Position numbers and translations under genes: made by a program
The notes under the pieces: model-generated
Told to the model about the DNA's origin: nothing
The model's input: only the letters and a program-made list of their open reading frames with translations
Databases searched by the model: none
Part shown: piece by piece, positions 2 to 38,232 of the stretch
Layout: each line of letters opens with the position of its first letter
Position numbering within the stretch: position 1 is the first letter of the stretch
Source of the DNA: a virus
Length of the DNA stretch: 39,377 nt
Direction: 5' to 3' (one strand)
Virus record (IMG/VR): IMGVR_UViG_3300044691_000063
Location: 1-39,377 of that record

Positions 2-595
2 ACCAACCACCGAGATGGACTCCACAAAACTAGGAATGACCGTCGTATAGCGCCGTTCTTCACGCGGCAACAGCAAAAAGAAGATTTGAAGCGTGACGGT
101 ATGGATGCGGTTTACTTTTCTGAAATTTGGGATTGGATGTTAAAAAAATTCGGTTTACCGATTCTTGCCGAATTCTTTCATAACTACGAAATCCCAGCCG
201 AGTTCGATCCTACGAAGCAATGCCGCAATGCGCCAGCTACTAGCGCAACGGATATCTCCATTGCCGAGGGGATCGGTAGTGTAGAGCAAGAAATCATAGA
301 AGCCGCTGAACAAGGCATCGTTGGTTTTCGTGACGGTTGGATTTCAACGATCATGATGGATAATTTATTAACTAAACTTAAAGCAAATACGAGAGTACCG
401 TTAAATAAACGTCGGGATATGTTACGGTCATTAGGGTACGACTGGCACCCAGCGTTAAGAGATGGTCGCGTTAATAACATCGTCTTACCAGACGGCGGGA
501 AACCACGATTGTTTATTAGGTTGGATCACCCGTTACGTAACTTAACTTCGCCCGCGGAGGTAGCTAAAGCATATACGGAAGCTCAAACAAAGTAG
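2..595 (+). CDS. Phage primase/helicase (D5/DUF5906-like), C-terminal part
   Basis: The frame is open from the left edge, so this is the C-terminal 197 residues of a longer protein. It begins TNHRDGLHKTRNDRRIAPFF, which resembles the conserved sensor/arginine-finger stretch (NH...RND/DDRR) of superfamily 3 type phage primase-helicases of the D5/DUF5906 group. This family unwinds and primes DNA at phage origins. No Walker motifs are visible because they would lie upstream of the window. The helicase that leaves the right edge is on the same strand, and helicase-primase neighbours or fusions are common in phages, so the two may be adjacent in a circular genome. The gene ends one base before a promoter. 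The identification rests on the short motif only. Confidence 0.65.
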   Translation, partial: TNHRDGLHKTRNDRRIAPFFTRQQQKEDLKRDGMDAVYFSEIWDWMLKKFGLPILAEFFHNYEIPAEFDPTKQCRNAPATSATDISIAEGIGSVEQEIIEAAEQGIVGFRDGWISTIMMDNLLTKLKANTRVPLNKRRDMLRSLGYDWHPALRDGRVNNIVLPDGGKPRLFIRLDHPLRNLTSPAEVAKAYTEAQTK

Positions 596-624
596 TTGAC
601 CAACTATAGTTGAAGAACTATAAT
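596..624 (+). promoter_or_regulatory. Promoter with family A palindromic operator
   Basis: The -35 TTGACC (596-601) and -10 TATAAT (619-624) are separated by exactly 17 bp. The spacer begins with the palindrome AACTATAGTT (602-611), extended here to CAACTATAGTTG (601-612). A half copy AACTA overlaps the -10. The same arrangement recurs at 3070-3098 and 30632-30660. A repressor bound at the palindrome would cover the -35 edge and block polymerase (inference). It drives the 44-aa gene at 665. Confidence 0.85.
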
Positions 625-664: not shown

Positions 665-799
665 ATGATTAGAGACTATAAATATTTGGTTGGACGCAAA
701 GAAGAACGCTTTGTAACAGAGTCAATGCTAGCTAGTTGGGTAGTCATGGCGGTAACTGGATGGATATTATGCCTATACTTACTTGATAAATTTTGTTAA
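665..799 (+). CDS. Small membrane protein, 44 aa, unknown
   Basis: This short gene starts at ATG 665 with AAGGAG at 652-657, a 7-nt spacing. The first 20 residues are charged (MIRDYKYLVGRKEERF), followed by one hydrophobic segment of about 20 residues (MLASWVVMAVTGWILCLYLL) and a short tail, DKFC. It is predicted to be a single-pass inner-membrane protein. It is a one-gene unit, with a strong operator-controlled promoter upstream and a good terminator 27 nt downstream. That isolation and control suggest an early or lysogeny-related gene rather than a virion gene (inference). I recognise no family. Its leader carries ATACTT and TTTACTTAT motifs, related to the AAGTAT repeats seen near other non-structural genes. 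Confidence 0.75.
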   Translation: MIRDYKYLVGRKEERFVTESMLASWVVMAVTGWILCLYLLDKFC

Positions 800-1443: not shown

Positions 1444-1794
1444 TTACAATCTTTTAAACTCAAAGTTAGATTTGGCGCGTCTTACAGGTGCTTTAACGCT
1501 AATCGTTGCTGCCGCCCCCTCGAACACATCATGTAACAATTCGTCGCCAGTTTGTCCACCATCGTCAGCCGACGCAACCATGTGCATCGCTTGTACCCAT
1601 CGACCGATAAAATGGCCGGCAAGCGTAGCGGTCGCCGTAAGTATATCGTCAGTCGGCCATTCTTCATTTATTTGATTAGCAGCCTGACAGAACATATCCC
1701 ATATTTGAGCATATGATTGCTCGGCGATACTATGCGCTAAATCGAGTATTTCTTTAACCCTAGGCGGTACTTCGTCATGAGGTTTAATTATCAT
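1444..1794 (-). CDS. Unknown protein, 116 aa
   Basis: A leftward gene in the small-gene operon. The product is mostly helical in appearance (ARVKEILDLAHSIAEQSY-like N-terminus, central TATATLAGHFIGRWVQAMHM) with a basic C-terminus (RRAKSNFEFKRL). No recognisable motif. The start is odd: the nearest Shine-Dalgarno, AAGGA (minus strand, 1810-1814), is 15 nt from the ATG, and the 12-bp palindrome AAGTATATACTT (1795-1806) fills the gap. The palindrome may be a regulator site, or a small hairpin that shortens the effective spacing. No other in-frame start fits better. Function unknown. Confidence 0.7.
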   Translation of the reverse strand: MIIKPHDEVPPRVKEILDLAHSIAEQSYAQIWDMFCQAANQINEEWPTDDILTATATLAGHFIGRWVQAMHMVASADDGGQTGDELLHDVFEGAAATISVKAPVRRAKSNFEFKRL

Positions 1795-1816: not shown

Positions 1817-2104
1817 TTACTTATTCTTTAATGGTACTGAACCGCGACGATAATCGCGGTAGGGGTCTTTAGTAAACTTACCTTTAACTTTGTAATTAAC
1901 CGAATATGAAGCTTCGTAAGTATCATCAATTTCTAATGTTTCGGGGATTTGCTCTATTAACTTCACGAACCGAAGTTGCCATTCATGCGGCATTGCTTCT
2001 AGCCAAAGTCGTGGAATGACTAGATAAGCGGCGTATGTTAAACCAAACCACAATGAAATATCATTTTCAAATGGGGCAATCGGGGCTTCTTCTTCTTTAC
2101 TCAT
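1817..2104 (-). CDS. Conserved phage protein of unknown function, 95 aa
   Basis: The core ISLWFGLTYAAYLVIPRLWL followed by EAMPHEWQLRFVKLIEQ resembles a small protein I know from many phages of Gram-negative bacteria, usually annotated as hypothetical. The C-terminal part (KGKFTKDPYRDYRRG) matches the usual 'GRF..DP..DYR' ending of that family. Its presence in many early regions suggests a nucleic-acid or host-takeover related role, but none is established to my knowledge. The ATG at 2104 has AAGG ten bases upstream in a leader containing TAAGTAT. It is separated from the upstream gene by 12 nt. Confidence 0.75.
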   Translation of the reverse strand: MSKEEEAPIAPFENDISLWFGLTYAAYLVIPRLWLEAMPHEWQLRFVKLIEQIPETLEIDDTYEASYSVNYKVKGKFTKDPYRDYRRGSVPLKNK

Positions 2105-2116
2105 ATACTTATAACC

Positions 2117-2512
2117 TTATTTACTTATCAATGCTTTCATAGCATTTTTAAAATCATCTAACGAAATGTCAAAAGTTTCGCTGCCCACTTCCACTAAAAT
2201 ATTGTCTTTTCTATCCGCGATAAATTTTATTCCGCCTACTTCAACATGTGAGAAATTTTTGTAACTACTTATTTGCTTAGCGACAATTTTCTCACTTCTT
2301 CGCATAGCTTTTATTAAGTTACGCATTTTTATCGCGGTATATGTAGCTTGAACACCCATACCTATGCAAATGTCGTTGTCTTGCTTAGCGTCTTTATCAT
2401 TTTCATATCCTTTTATGACGCCCATTAAATGAGACATACGGTGGTGTTCTAAACAGAAATCTTGTTTAAGAAGGTCAATCAAAGTGTCGTACATCGATCT
2501 ATCGAAACTCAT
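2117..2512 (-). CDS. Unknown protein, 131 aa
   Basis: A leftward gene whose ATG overlaps the stop of the HTH gene (2509-2512). The N-terminal half is helical with several Cys/His residues (FCLEHHRMSH, DICIGMG). Residues about 65-85 are basic (KMRNLIKAMRRSEKIVAKQ), and the C-terminal 40 residues look like a small beta structure (GGIKFIADRKDNILVEVGSETFDIS, broken by turns). I do not recognise a family. Its neighbours are a DNA-binding protein and a response regulator, so a regulatory partner role is conceivable but unsupported. Confidence 0.7.
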   Translation of the reverse strand: MSFDRSMYDTLIDLLKQDFCLEHHRMSHLMGVIKGYENDKDAKQDNDICIGMGVQATYTAIKMRNLIKAMRRSEKIVAKQISSYKNFSHVEVGGIKFIADRKDNILVEVGSETFDISLDDFKNAMKALISK

Positions 2513-2691
2513 TTCTTTTGCCTCTTTTGTTCGTCAGCAATCAAGTCGGCCTTGGGTATCATCCGAGACCGACCGCATTCGCACCAATCTACGTTAGGGA
2601 AGTGACCGTCTTTTATTTTGGTAACTATCCGTTGTGGGCAAACCCCCAGATAATCGGCCGCTTCCTGTGAAGTCAATCGTTCTTTCGACAT
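2509..2691 (-). CDS. Excisionase/MerR-like HTH DNA-binding protein, 60 aa
   Basis: The N-terminus MSKERLTSQEAADYLGVCPQ is the typical helix-turn-helix opening of the HTH_17/excisionase family ('LTxxEAAxYLGVs...v..li..G'). It continues with KIKDGHFPN and a basic segment RSRMIPKADL that would be the wing and recognition part. Such proteins bind short DNA sites and act as excisionases or small repressors. No integrase is visible in the window, so an excisionase role is doubtful and transcriptional control is more likely (inference). Its start lies inside the end of the response-regulator gene, giving a 98-nt out-of-frame overlap, which is long for a phage. Both reading frames look natural. Confidence 0.75.
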   Translation of the reverse strand: MSKERLTSQEAADYLGVCPQRIVTKIKDGHFPNVDWCECGRSRMIPKADLIADEQKRQKK

Positions 2692-3037
2692 CTTGAACCC
2701 TCTTTATTATTTTTAATAAATCTGCCATGTCGGTCGGCTTTTTATAAACATCGTTAAAACCGGCTTTCAGGCATTCATCCCGAATCTGATCGCCCAGACT
2801 CGATATGCCGAGGATGATATTACGTTTCGTTTCCTTATTGCGAATGATTCTAGCGACTTCTAAGCCGTTTAATTCAGGTAAGCATACGTCTAGTAAAATG
2901 ACATCATAGCCACGGTGGAAGAGTCGTAACGCTTCTAAACCCGTCTTTGCTACGTCTACCCTATATCCCAGACGCTCAAGGTTCGTTCGTATAATCCACA
3001 CGGCCATTTCGTTATCTTCAACTAATAAAAAGTCCAT
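2594..3037 (-). CDS. Stand-alone response regulator receiver protein, 147 aa
   Basis: A complete CheY-like receiver domain. The acidic pair is E7-D8 (LLVEDNE), the phospho-acceptor is D50 (VILLDVCLPELNGLEV), S79/S80 lie in the switch position (ILGISSLGD), and lysine K100 precedes proline (VYKKPTD). All key residues are present, so it should be able to accept phosphate from a host kinase. After about residue 115 there is only a short tail (DVERTIDFTGSG...) and no output domain. It is the first gene after the family A promoter at 3070-3098, with AAGGAG 9 nt before the ATG. Its last 98 nt overlap the HTH gene. A receiver protein encoded by a phage is unusual. It could capture host two-component signalling or act through the HTH protein. 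Confidence 0.88.
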   Translation of the reverse strand: MDFLLVEDNEMAVWIIRTNLERLGYRVDVAKTGLEALRLFHRGYDVILLDVCLPELNGLEVARIIRNKETKRNIILGISSLGDQIRDECLKAGFNDVYKKPTDMADLLKIIKRVQDVERTIDFTGSGRLSGGLPTTDSYQNKRRSLP

Positions 3038-3069
3038 CTCCGTTGCTCCTTGGTTGTTAATTCCCTTTC

Positions 3070-3098
3070 AGTATAGTTTGTTAACTATAGTTCGTCAA
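3070..3098 (-). promoter_or_regulatory. Leftward promoter with family A operator
   Basis: On the minus strand: -35 TTGACG (3098-3093), 17-bp spacer, -10 TATACT (3075-3070). The spacer starts with the palindrome AACTATAGTT (3083-3092), in the same position as at 596 and 30632. The transcript would begin near 3063 and read the response-regulator operon. Confidence 0.82.
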
Positions 3099-3386
3099 CT
3101 AAAACTTTCCTTCGCTGATTTCCTGCAATTCTCTATCGAAATTCAAAGCATCGGCATATTTCATCAAGGCCGCTCTATCCTTTTCGCTACGAAGAGTAAG
3201 TTTCACTTCTGTAATTTCTGGCTTGGGCGACTTCGAATATCGGTTCTGATAGTTCTTACTATAGGTTGCTGCGCAGTCGATACAAACTCCCGTATTAACA
3301 TATCGGAACGTCTTGTGACCACGGATGCACGGTTTTCCCGTAGAGTATTTATGTTTACCGAGGGCATGGGCTTGTTTTCTGGTCAT
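3099..3386 (-). CDS. Zinc-binding, HNH/endonuclease VII-like small protein, 95 aa
   Basis: I chose the ATG at 3386 (MTRKQAHALGK...) over an upstream TTG at 3431, because the segment between looks non-coding. Residues 11-38 read KHKYSTGKPCIRGHKTFRY then VNTGVCIDC. The pattern 'YxTGKPCxxGH...R...TGxCxxC' is the zinc-ligand core seen in small phage proteins related to recombination endonuclease VII/HNH proteins. The remaining 50 residues are basic (KNYQNRYSKSPK) then helical. The full nuclease catalytic His-Asn signature is not evident at this length, so DNA binding or a reduced nuclease is possible. Its stop codon abuts the -35 of the downstream promoter. Confidence 0.7.
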   Translation of the reverse strand: MTRKQAHALGKHKYSTGKPCIRGHKTFRYVNTGVCIDCAATYSKNYQNRYSKSPKPEITEVKLTLRSEKDRAALMKYADALNFDRELQEISEGKF

Positions 3387-28716: not shown

Positions 28717-29024
28717 CAATACTAAATTCCATTCTAGCAACCCTAGTTTTAGGGTTTTCTATATTGATTTGGTATTACCGTGATATCGCTGTAACTTACC
28801 AATATCGGATGGAAACATACCAATCCCAAGTTGAAGCTATGAAGAAAGAAGCGACCGCAATGACCCAACGATTCGAAATTGCACGTCAGCAATCCTTAGA
28901 GGAAATGCGACACGTACAGGATAGATCGAAAGAAATCATGGATACGAAAATACCGCCCGATTGCGAATCGGCTATCAAGTTCGGTCGAGACCAAGCCAAA
29001 CGGTTTGCCTCGATAAGTAGATAA
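28713..29024 (+). CDS. Inner-membrane spanin (Rz-like), 103 aa
   Basis: An N-terminal transmembrane helix (residues 4-22, ILNSILATLVLGFSILIWYY) is followed by a periplasmic coiled coil rich in Gln, Glu and Arg (YQSQVEAMKKEATAMTQRFE, QQSLEEMRHVQDRSKEI) and a C-terminal PPDCESAIKFGRDQAKRF. This is the architecture of Rz proteins. It would bind the following lipoprotein and fuse inner and outer membranes in the final step of lysis. AAGGA precedes the ATG. Confidence 0.85.
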   Translation: MTILNSILATLVLGFSILIWYYRDIAVTYQYRMETYQSQVEAMKKEATAMTQRFEIARQQSLEEMRHVQDRSKEIMDTKIPPDCESAIKFGRDQAKRFASISR

Positions 29025-29036
29025 GTATATACTTAT
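29021..29036. repeat. ATAAGTATATACTTAT palindrome
   Basis: A perfect 16-bp palindrome spans the end of the i-spanin gene and the short gap before the o-spanin gene. It contains the AAGTATATACTT core found at 1795 and in the parA leader. Confidence 0.85.
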
Positions 29037-29059
29037 TTCTTTATCTGAGGTTTATCTTA

Positions 29060-29311
29060 ATGTCTAAAAGTATCAACTCAATCATGATGTCTATAGCGGT
29101 CATGATATTAGTCGGTTGTGCTACACAAAAACCAACACCGGTCGTGTACGCACCTCCACATATTGAACTACCGCCAGACCCGATACCGGCCACAAACCGA
29201 ATTACCGACGATTCTATGCCGGCGGAGGTTATGAAATCGTGGGTTTCAACTGCCGTTGACTTTCGCGGCTGGAATGTCGCCGTAAGAAAATTAATAGAAA
29301 ATTCTCGATAA
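29060..29311 (+). CDS. Outer-membrane lipoprotein spanin (Rz1-like), 83 aa
   Basis: A hydrophobic signal (MMSIAVMILVGC) ends in the lipobox LVGC, so the mature lipoprotein starts at Cys20 (LVGCATQK). The next part is proline-rich (PTPVVYAPPHIELPPDPIPA), the signature of Rz1 spanins. It is separate from, not embedded in, the i-spanin gene. It supports a Gram-negative host. Its Shine-Dalgarno (TGAGG) follows the palindromic repeat. Confidence 0.85.
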   Translation: MSKSINSIMMSIAVMILVGCATQKPTPVVYAPPHIELPPDPIPATNRITDDSMPAEVMKSWVSTAVDFRGWNVAVRKLIENSR

Positions 29312-29314
29312 AAT

Positions 29315-29360
29315 AAGTATTTAAGTATATACTTATATCTTTATTTAAGGAAATAAGTAT
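29315..29360. repeat. AAGTAT repeat cluster in front of parA
   Basis: AAGTAT at 29315-29320, 29323-29328 and 29355-29360, plus the inverted ATACTT at 29329-29334, so one full AAGTATATACTT palindrome with flanking direct half-sites. This is the arrangement expected for an operator or centromere bound by a ribbon-helix-helix protein. The last copy ends at the start codon of parA. Confidence 0.7.
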
Positions 29361-30002
29361 ATGATAATATCGATGCTTAATCAAAAGGGCGGAGTAGGAA
29401 AAACAACAATTACGGTTAATCTAGCGTCAGCGTTTAAATCAATGGGCTATAAAGTTCTTTTAGTTGATTCAGACCCGCAAGGTTCGGCTAGAGATTGGCA
29501 CACGAATAACGAAGGGGAAACCCTAGATGTAATAGGGTTAGACCGACCTACCTTAGATAAAGATATTATGCGTTTTAGAAAACAATATGATGTAGTTTTC
29601 ATCGATGGCGCACCACACCTATCTAGCATGGCGACACGTGCAATACTATGTTCTGACATCGTTTTAATTCCAGTACAACCGAGTCCATACGACGTGTGGG
29701 CGAGTAGTGATTTAGTTGAGCTAATCCGTCAACGACGAGAAATAACCGATGGCAAACCCCAAGCAGCATTTGTGATCAGTCGAAAAATTATTAATACTAT
29801 TTTAGGGCGTGAAGTTAGAGACGCTTTAGAAGAATACAACTTACCAGTATTGAATAACGGAACATCGCAAAGAGTAATTTATGCTTCAAGTGCGTCAACC
29901 GGTAAGACTGTTTTAGATTCAGATTGCGAAGCTAAAAGAGAAATAATGGCTTTAGCTTGGGAAGTAAAAGAATTAATGAAATTAGAAGGGTTTAAATTAT
30001 GA
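29361..30002 (+). CDS. parA: ParA/ParF-type partition ATPase, 213 aa
   Basis: The deviant Walker A KGGVGKTT has both signature K9 and K14. VLLVDSDPQGSARDW is the Walker A' region and VVFIDGAPHLSS the Walker B. The length (213 aa) and absence of an N-terminal HTH place it with small type Ib ParA/ParF proteins. These position plasmids on the nucleoid using a small DNA-binding partner. The following RHH gene overlaps by ATGA, giving the usual parA-parB/G order. In a phage this implies low-copy plasmid maintenance. AAGGA is ten bases before the ATG. Confidence 0.92.
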   Translation: MIISMLNQKGGVGKTTITVNLASAFKSMGYKVLLVDSDPQGSARDWHTNNEGETLDVIGLDRPTLDKDIMRFRKQYDVVFIDGAPHLSSMATRAILCSDIVLIPVQPSPYDVWASSDLVELIRQRREITDGKPQAAFVISRKIINTILGREVRDALEEYNLPVLNNGTSQRVIYASSASTGKTVLDSDCEAKREIMALAWEVKELMKLEGFKL

Positions 30003-30217
30003 CATTAAAAGCCAAACCATTTAATAGTAACAAACGAATGGAAAAAATGCAGAATGACATTTCAAATCCGAGGCCGACGAAACTTTTAAATTCGTTGATT
30101 CCTGCCGATTTATTTGAGGAGTTTAAAATAACCGCCATCAAAAATAAAACTACTATGACGGATATTTTAATCGATATGATGACAGAATACGTCGTCAAAA
30201 ACAGAAGCCCGGTTTAA
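29999..30217 (+). CDS. ParG-like ribbon-helix-helix partition partner, 72 aa
   Basis: A 25-residue basic/polar N-terminal tail (LKAKPFNSNKRMEKMQ) is followed by RPTKLLNSLIPADLFEEFKI and AIKNKTTMTDILIDMMTEYV, a ribbon-helix-helix fold (beta strand, two helices). ParG and similar partners have exactly this layout, with the tail stimulating the ParF ATPase and the RHH dimer binding repeated operator/centromere sites. It is coupled to parA by an ATGA overlap. The neighbouring AAGTAT repeats are its natural candidate targets (inference). Confidence 0.82.
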   Translation: MTLKAKPFNSNKRMEKMQNDISNPRPTKLLNSLIPADLFEEFKITAIKNKTTMTDILIDMMTEYVVKNRSPV

Positions 30218-30229: not shown

Positions 30230-30415
30230 TTAAAAAACTGCAAATTTTCGATTGGTTTCGATTTTACATCTATCACACTTAAATCTATTACTGTAAATGC
30301 TATAAGGGTCTTTTATTAATGACCAAGGCCTATCAACCTCAGTTACCGTATATTTTGAAAGCTCAAACCAACGATGGCCTTTGAAACGGCAGATTATCTT
30401 TCTTATAAATTCCAT
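30230..30415 (-). CDS. Small zinc-motif protein, DUF1660-like, 61 aa
   Basis: The opening FIRKIICRFKGHRW and later NRFKCDRCKIE give C-x-GH and CxxC metal-ligand pairs. This is the pattern of small prophage proteins of the DUF1660 type. The function is unknown; a zinc-stabilised fold is likely. It overlaps the end of the upstream gene by 13 nt. It is the last gene of the leftward unit that starts at the promoter 30632-30660. Confidence 0.7.
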   Translation of the reverse strand: MEFIRKIICRFKGHRWFELSKYTVTEVDRPWSLIKDPYSIYSNRFKCDRCKIETNRKFAVF

Positions 30416-30597
30416 GTTATTTGTTTCTCTCCCACCTTCTTTAAACCAGCATCATGGCCGGTATTGGTTGCTATTCTAATGAAAATTAGGGCTAAATCTT
30501 TCCTGTTTTTAAGAGATTCCATTAACTCTTGCTTCGTACCCCGAGATATTTCTACTGTGCCAGTTTCGTTGCATAACACCATTCTAAAATGATCCAT
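30403..30597 (-). CDS. Unknown small protein, 64 aa
   Basis: ATG 30597 has GGAG eight bases upstream; a GTG three codons earlier would leave no room for it, so the ATG is preferred. The sequence MDHFRMVLCNETGTVEISRG then LMESLKNRKDLALIFIRIAT suggests a small alpha/beta protein. It is the first gene behind a family A promoter, as the response regulator and the 44-aa membrane protein are. No family was recognised. Confidence 0.7.
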   Translation of the reverse strand: MDHFRMVLCNETGTVEISRGTKQELMESLKNRKDLALIFIRIATNTGHDAGLKKVGEKQITWNL

Positions 30598-30631: not shown

Positions 30632-30660
30632 AATGTAGTTAATTAACTATAGTTTGTCAA
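30632..30660 (-). promoter_or_regulatory. Leftward promoter with family A operator
   Basis: Minus strand: -35 TTGACA (30660-30655), 17-bp spacer, -10 TACATT (30637-30632). AACTATAGTT (30645-30654) sits right after the -35 as in the other two copies. It drives the two small genes at 30230-30597. Confidence 0.82.
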
Positions 30661-31005
30661 CTACCTAACATTAAGAATATGCCATAAATCACCGTCATGT
30701 CTGAGATAACAAGTGGCTTGAGAAAGTATCGTTGCATTAAATCCGTTGCGGCCACGGAATTGGATTGTAACGACCCAAATACCATCTTTACGTTTAACGA
30801 TTTCTGTCGTTCGCGAGTGAAAAAATTCTAATGAGCTAGGGTCGTTATCTAATCGTTTCACCGCTATTTGACAAGCCCCGTTTGCCGAAGAATCCATATT
30901 GATCGGTTCATCTTTTGGTGGATAGATAAATATATAAACAGAGACCCCGATAAGAACCAAGAACATATAAATTATAAATTTTCCTAACCGTTTTAGTGAT
31001 TTCAT
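30661..31005 (-). CDS. Membrane-anchored unknown protein, 114 aa
   Basis: I use ATG 31005 with AAAAAGG upstream, rather than a TTG 27 nt before inside the polymerase gene. After KSLKRLGK a transmembrane helix FIIYMFLVLIGVSVYIFIYP follows. The C-terminal 75 residues (GACQIAVKRLDNDPSSLEFF, TTEIVKRKDGIWVVTIQFRG, ATCYLRHDGDLWHILNV) look like a small secreted beta domain with two cysteines that could form a disulfide. It overlaps the polymerase stop. Function unknown; an exclusion or envelope role is possible. Confidence 0.7.
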   Translation of the reverse strand: MKSLKRLGKFIIYMFLVLIGVSVYIFIYPPKDEPINMDSSANGACQIAVKRLDNDPSSLEFFHSRTTEIVKRKDGIWVVTIQFRGRNGFNATILSQATCYLRHDGDLWHILNVR

Positions 31006-38159: not shown

Positions 38160-38174
38160 ATCATTTCCTTATTT

Positions 38175-38210
38175 AAGTATATAAGTATTTACTTATATGA
38201 GTATATACTT
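38175..38210. repeat. AAGTAT/ATACTT cluster in leader
   Basis: AAGTAT at 38175-38180 and 38183-38188, and ATACTT at 38205-38210, with related TTTACTT and GAGTAT between them. It lies in the 5' leader of the leftward operon, the same kind of position as in front of parA. Confidence 0.68.
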
Positions 38211-38232
38211 ATTTCTTTATGAAATGCAACAA

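Follow-up and report, generated by a model that had tools for sequence, protein, structure and literature searches.

Sensing or manipulation of host signalling is known in phages. The stretch of DNA analysed (the window), a virus record of 39,377 bases, comes from a contractile-tailed phage with genes for terminase, portal, capsid, sheath and baseplate J, and with replication genes for DNA polymerase, ssDNA-binding protein, exonuclease, helicase and primase. Both ends of the contig fall within genes, those for helicase and primase, and comparison with colinear relatives suggests that 3-4 kb of the genome is missing. A first-pass annotation had described a stand-alone response regulator with no output domain, here named REC, which might make the lysis-lysogeny or plasmid state depend on host signalling, or block a host pathway.

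The receiver domain and its reading frame

REC and the elements within or next to its reading frame are as follows.

2594..3037, minus strand: REC ORF, a single-domain response regulator; ATG start, 147 aa (PF00072 match and fold model)
2702..3028, minus strand: receiver domain proper, aa 4-112, with E7, D8, D50, S79, V97 and K100 (profile match and translation)
2594..2683, minus strand: C-terminal tail, aa 119-147, read-through into the HTH_17 gene, probably non-functional (ORF coordinates and model confidence)
2699..2705, minus strand: Shine-Dalgarno-like AAAGAGG inside REC, before the HTH_17 ATG at 2691 (read directly from the sequence)
3038..3051, minus strand: Shine-Dalgarno region of REC, AAGGAGCAACGGAG (read directly from the sequence)

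In the Pfam profile search that the first-pass annotation had proposed, Response_reg (PF00072) matched aa 4-112 of REC (E 8.6e-20, 71.4 bits). Set against the curated cut-off of 30.2 bits, a score of 71 bits places the match far beyond chance. It was the only strong match, and neither the profile searches nor the fold model gave a second domain. Translation showed an acid pocket of E7 and D8 and, together with alignments, D50 at the phospho-acceptor position and a Lys-Pro pair at K100-P101. Alignment to 7c1j assigned the conserved T/S position to S79, with S80 merely adjacent. The phosphorylation residues listed in the first pass are therefore all present, S80 being a neighbour.

Structure prediction, named beforehand as a possible refutation, returned a (beta-alpha)5 receiver fold with a pLDDT of 85, reaching ~90 or more across most of aa 1-110, and the model was confident across aa 1-118. 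The best superposition was with the VicR receiver (Z 21.3, rmsd 1.2, 118 residues), and many solved receivers superimposed at Z ~20. A C-terminal DNA-binding output domain of the OmpR/NarL type is absent from the protein; HTH_17 is encoded by its own ORF in a different frame. These results confirm REC as a genuine receiver domain without an output domain.

The aromatic switch residue typical of OmpR/NarL-type output regulators is not present in REC, where Val97 occupies the beta5 switch position, three residues before the Lys. Aromatic residues filled this position in 63 of the 66 response regulators compared, and in 104 of 114 receivers from hybrid kinases or contig edges; the viral part of the compared set was picked by a pattern permitting only Y or V there. 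Valine at the switch position is common to REC and ArcB receivers.

REC overlaps the HTH_17 gene (2509-2691), as first annotated, and the overlap measures 98 nt. Residues 119-147 are HTH_17 coding sequence read in another frame, with low model confidence (block means 51-59). Since the tail lies inside the overlap and is poorly modelled, the functional protein is probably ~118 aa long. The gene preceding HTH_17 in the relative G013 overlaps it by 4 nt, compared to 98 nt in the window, and the simplest reading is that the original stop codon of REC was lost. A programmed frameshift fusing REC to HTH_17 was judged unlikely: HTH_17 lies in the +1 frame, three TAA codons stand just before its ATG, and it is served by its own Shine-Dalgarno sequence. 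No slippery site of classic type was seen at the overlap, and RNA structure there was not unusual (z 0.37).

A three-operator regulon and its candidate regulator

REC heads one of three transcription units that share a promoter-operator.

3070..3101, minus strand: promoter TTGACG-17-TATACT of the REC operon; its operator consists of two tandem 14-bp palindromes (sequence, motif scan)
2509..2691, minus strand: HTH_17 protein, 60 aa, MerR/BldC/Xis-like DNA-binding (PF12728, E 9.1e-9); likely regulator of the operators
2117..2512, minus strand: REC-operon gene, 131 aa, no family match; its start overlaps the HTH_17 stop
1817..2104, minus strand: REC-operon downstream gene, 95 aa, phrog_3527
1444..1794, minus strand: REC-operon downstream gene, 116 aa, no significant family match
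593..620, plus strand: second promoter-operator copy, TTGACC-17-TATAAT, directly after the primase gene
665..799, plus strand: 44-aa ORF that opens the second operator unit and has a single hydrophobic stretch
30636..30663, minus strand: third promoter-operator copy, TTGACA-17-TACATT, after the DNA polymerase operon
30403..30597, minus strand: 64-aa ORF that opens the third operator unit

The REC promoter is sigma70-like and holds two adjacent copies of the 14-bp palindrome TAGTTNNNNAACTA at 3074-3101. Within the window the exact palindrome occurs solely as three adjacent pairs of 28 bp each (593-620, 3074-3101 and 30636-30663); with one mismatch allowed there were 9 matches compared to 1.7 expected (0 of 100 shuffles). 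All three promoters combine a TTGAC -35 element with a 17-base spacer, and the distance from the start of the -35 to the first ORF is 61-69 bases. The promoter motif TTGAC-N3-CTATAG-N8-CTATAG serves the REC operon and two operons of small genes. These sister operons open with small proteins, mostly of 44-64 aa, several with one hydrophobic stretch. REC is thus the first gene of an operator-controlled operon, as the first pass had it, and the control extends to three operons.

Four colinear whole genomes (G007, G013, G027 and G033) have it as the variant TTGAC-N3-CTATAG-N8-CTATAG. Three sites each were counted in the window, G013, G027 and G033, and two plus a weaker third in G007, while shuffled genomes gave ~0 matches. 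Sites in the relatives mostly lie after primase, after polymerase and upstream of HTH_17, with the exception of G033, which has two after polymerase and none after primase. The exact operator pair was not found as a pattern in viral contigs because the relatives use the variant sequence.

PF12728 (HTH_17) was matched at the corresponding spot in all four colinear relatives. The operator motif occurred in 5/5 genomes with a syntenic HTH_17 gene and in none of the 27 other related genomes, several of which are partial. Two of these others, G016 and G029, share replication genes with the window (helicase 72-73% identity) but have neither HTH_17 nor the motif; OsaM_PD0307 has a diverged HTH_17 adjoining primase and no operator motif. 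Because its presence tracks the operators, HTH_17 is the best candidate binder and, on this co-occurrence, likely their regulator. In its model, HTH_17 is similar to the DNA-binding domains of MerR-type proteins, BldC and Xis, and a Foldseek search with this model gave no match below E 0.01. The ribbon-helix-helix (RHH) protein at 29999-30217 was considered as the operator binder and found less likely, as most operator-bearing relatives do not have it.

Three cysteines (C18, C37 and C39) are invariant across the HTH_17 proteins of the group and may form a metal site. A second, dispersed AT-rich element (ATAAGTAAATAAGG, AAGTATATACTTA) was also observed in the window, with several copies just upstream of genes (630-651, 1110-1123, 1793-1824, 2103-2128, 29013-29345 and 38166-38220; 7 matches, 0.8 expected).

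The three-operator arrangement with HTH_17, but without REC, is conserved in the relatives. In G007, G013 and G027 the slot before HTH_17 is taken by unrelated small proteins carrying a Sec-type signal sequence, and the operon of G033 opens with HTH_17. Since the relatives have HTH_17 and the operators but no REC, REC is an insert between HTH_17 and the promoter, in a variable first-gene slot where accessory genes appear to be exchanged. The G+C and GC3 of REC match the phage. Chimeric assembly was ruled out: REC lies between primase and TerS, beside HTH_17 as in the relatives and under the common operator. In G007, G013 and G027 (loci L010, L016 and L188), two small Sec-signal proteins flank HTH_17, with motifs SQHSxMPSDFFS and SGSCGTKITCKPG; they are possibly an exported pair under the same operator.

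The regulon probably deserves wider interest than the receiver. Its conserved operators also offer a compact handle on regulation in an uncultivated gammaproteobacterial-type group of myophages.

Origin of the receiver gene

The first-pass annotation had noted a likeness to hybrid-kinase receivers of gammaproteobacteria, and our searches agree. ArcB was the best NCBIfam profile for REC (73 bits). Among 369 gammaproteobacterial genomes, the top match was L275 in genome G741, a 159-aa stand-alone receiver (43% identity, E 1.9e-24), followed by other stand-alone receivers. Genes for VirB4, VirB8, VirB9, VirB10 and VirB11 adjoin L275. DotI/IcmL was found in several gammaproteobacterial genomes with REC-like receivers; a 'Legionellales-like' label for them would rest on these matches, and G741 itself has none. 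A genome scan for a donor gave scattered phyla, with up to 44% identity among the matches listed.

The phylogeny proposed in the first pass was informative about the type of receiver and not about the donor. In the larger tree (133 rows), REC grouped with ArcB receivers (support 96/93), whereas in the focused tree (40 rows) it was sister to L275 (support 96/94), and an AU test did not reject the ArcB grouping (p 0.357). Branches are long and columns few, which makes either placement tentative; both trees point to hybrid-kinase-type receivers of gammaproteobacteria. The REC branch measured 1.7-2.1 changes per column, and the nearest compared relative had ~41-43% identity. That E7, D8, D50, S79 and K100 were kept over such a distance suggests that the phosphorylation chemistry is under selection.

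Receiver genes had been called rare in phages, and PF00072 was found in 0/82 TerL-related records, many of them fragments. No close viral relative of REC was recovered by pattern scan. An alignment scan returned 80 viral loci, mostly full-length regulators of 220-250 aa, some probably host flank. Database matches of REC labelled 'phage' were set aside, since many appear to be bacterial contigs from phage projects. Viral receivers in BFVD numbered 28 entries at E 0.001 or better, short ones included. Stand-alone receivers were also seen in phage tail/lysis gene neighbourhoods at L146:4980-5435 (151 aa) and L153:4971-5384 (137 aa). In the isolated Stenotrophomonas phage Bhz63 (OR797046; L088), an annotated PhoP-like response regulator is followed by a CreC-like (PRK11100) protein, possibly a complete two-component pair.

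Possible roles and known systems

Our best explanation, a tentative one that we rate a little short of an even chance, is that REC is a working single-domain receiver, acquired by the phage, that heads the HTH_17 operon and serves a host hybrid kinase or phosphorelay as phosphoryl acceptor or decoy. The receiver gene would have entered the phage lineage and been placed first in the operon, with HTH_17 binding the three operators and regulating its own operon. The operons are probably early; we take them as such because of their sigma70-type promoters and small orphan proteins. During infection, REC would take its phosphoryl groups from a hybrid kinase or phosphotransfer protein of the host, and so might drain, divert or compete with a host phosphorelay of the ArcB or a similar type.

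In the CckA-type hybrid-kinase receivers studied so far, the residue at the beta5 aromatic position is variable and activation brings no allosteric change (PMC9981736). Valine at position 97 and the hybrid-kinase-type sequence would be more in keeping with a passive shuttle or sink than with an on/off switch acting on a partner protein. Tapping or blocking a host pathway appears the likelier half of what the first pass suggested. Against this explanation, the viruses compared include no close REC homologue and all relatives live without REC, and the 98-nt overlap and lost stop codon could also mark a recent or failing insertion.

Alternatively, REC may bind the transmitter domain of a host kinase, or an Hpt protein, and inhibit it without phosphotransfer. 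The single-domain regulator Osp shuts down the hybrid kinase CckA (PMC9430884), and the lytic-phage protein PIT4, which binds several host kinases, shows that phage proteins can target kinase domains (PMC10714779). The receiver surface is intact in the REC model; however, REC retains the complete catalytic set, for which a pure binder would have no use, and we consider this alternative unlikely.

The adjacent and overlapping REC and HTH_17 genes, with their internal Shine-Dalgarno sequence, could instead encode a split response regulator, in which REC, made from the same mRNA, binds HTH_17 and phosphorylation changes its action at the three operators, so that the regulon hears host kinases. 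The operators track HTH_17, whose fold is like that of MerR-type and BldC DNA-binding domains. However, four relatives have HTH_17 and operators without REC, which makes REC dispensable for HTH_17 function; the slot before HTH_17 holds unrelated Sec-signal-like proteins in three of them and is empty in G033; and REC has no aromatic switch residue. Phospho-control of HTH_17 is possible, and weaker as a proposal than the acceptor or decoy role. We regard the split regulator as distinctly unlikely, and more doubtful still the fuller version in which a captured receiver has been wired to HTH_17 and all three operons answer a host kinase through a two-component regulator divided over overlapping genes.

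Between these last two in probability, and so also improbable, is that REC is a captured gene which so far brings little or no benefit and is carried along by a strong phage promoter. The lost stop codon with its read-through into HTH_17, the missing receiver in all 82 related records and the want of a close homologue in phages speak for such a passenger. In contrast, the active-site set and fold were preserved over a long branch, the matching GC and GC3 indicate that REC was not freshly acquired, and its promoter spacing and Shine-Dalgarno sequence are well formed.

The first-pass proposal that REC sets lysis-lysogeny was not supported. No tyrosine integrase was found in the window or in the four colinear whole genomes, and the phage DNA polymerase was nearly absent from 398 sampled Pseudomonadota genomes (two matches, ~40% and ~30% identity over two aligned parts). 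The isolated phages nearest by DNA polymerase have gammaproteobacterial hosts, among them Shewanella, Acinetobacter and Pseudomonas; a pattern scan of viral contigs for the polymerase gave no match, although relatives exist. A plasmid-like state is possible through ParA (29361-30002), a plasmid-type partition ATPase (NF041546, 263 bits) closest to those of gammaproteobacterial plasmids and missing in the four colinear relatives. ParA lies with a 72-aa Arc-like (ribbon-helix-helix) protein at 29361-30217, between lysis and polymerase genes, and a search of eight related virus contigs and four isolated phages gave no ParA-type match. Least probable of all is that REC and the ParA/RHH pair set a plasmid-like carrier state by host signals: the plasmid-type ParA and REC are both private to this phage among those compared, but set against this are the absence of a tyrosine integrase, 0/3 exact operator pairs upstream of ParA, relatives without ParA, and the missing 3-4 kb, in which a repressor or replication gene could lie unseen.

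The acceptor or decoy role has its closest parallels in bacterial single-domain response regulators of the Osp, MrrA, SdrG, CpdR and Spo0F type. Similar to REC, these have a full active site and no output domain, and such regulators can act as a phosphate hub, sink or kinase inhibitor (PMC9981736, PMC9430884). Unlike them, REC is phage-borne and under a phage operator, and its beta4, which reads ILGISSL, shows no evident FATGUY motif of the kind described for CckA, MrrA and SdrG. The ArcB receiver shares ~39% identity, the switch-position valine and similar VDVA-TG and LLD-x-x-LP segments with REC, which differs in being free-standing, without a kinase or Hpt domain. L275 of G741 and L276-L278 are stand-alone like REC, with a similar beta4 and GF-D-YKKP segment, L275 being closest by score; they differ in an N-terminal extension of ~30-50 aa and in being chromosomal or beside a VirB-type conjugation cluster, not in a phage.

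Among viral proteins, BFVD entries A0A6C0R1B8 and A0A6J5RMP2 and the receivers of phage contigs L146 and L153 are short like REC (137-151 aa), but distant from it (20-29% identity) and in other gene contexts, and the HTH_17 operator regulon was not seen with any of the four. No experimentally characterised phage single-domain response regulator was found in the literature searched. The cREC domains of jumbo phages (PMC7824862) are likewise a phage-borne, receiver-like fold; they are divergent and tied to NAD+/cyclic nucleotide enzymes, never kinases, whereas REC is a conventional PF00072 receiver. Its operon neighbours included no NAD+/ADP-ribose or RNA-repair enzymes in Pfam, PHROGs, NCBIfam and PADLOC searches. 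Receivers in viruses are rare but known, stand-alone ones occur in a few other phages, and the regulatory setting of REC is unusually clear; should REC drain or rewire a host phosphorelay, it would offer a direct, testable example of a viral receiver-domain decoy.
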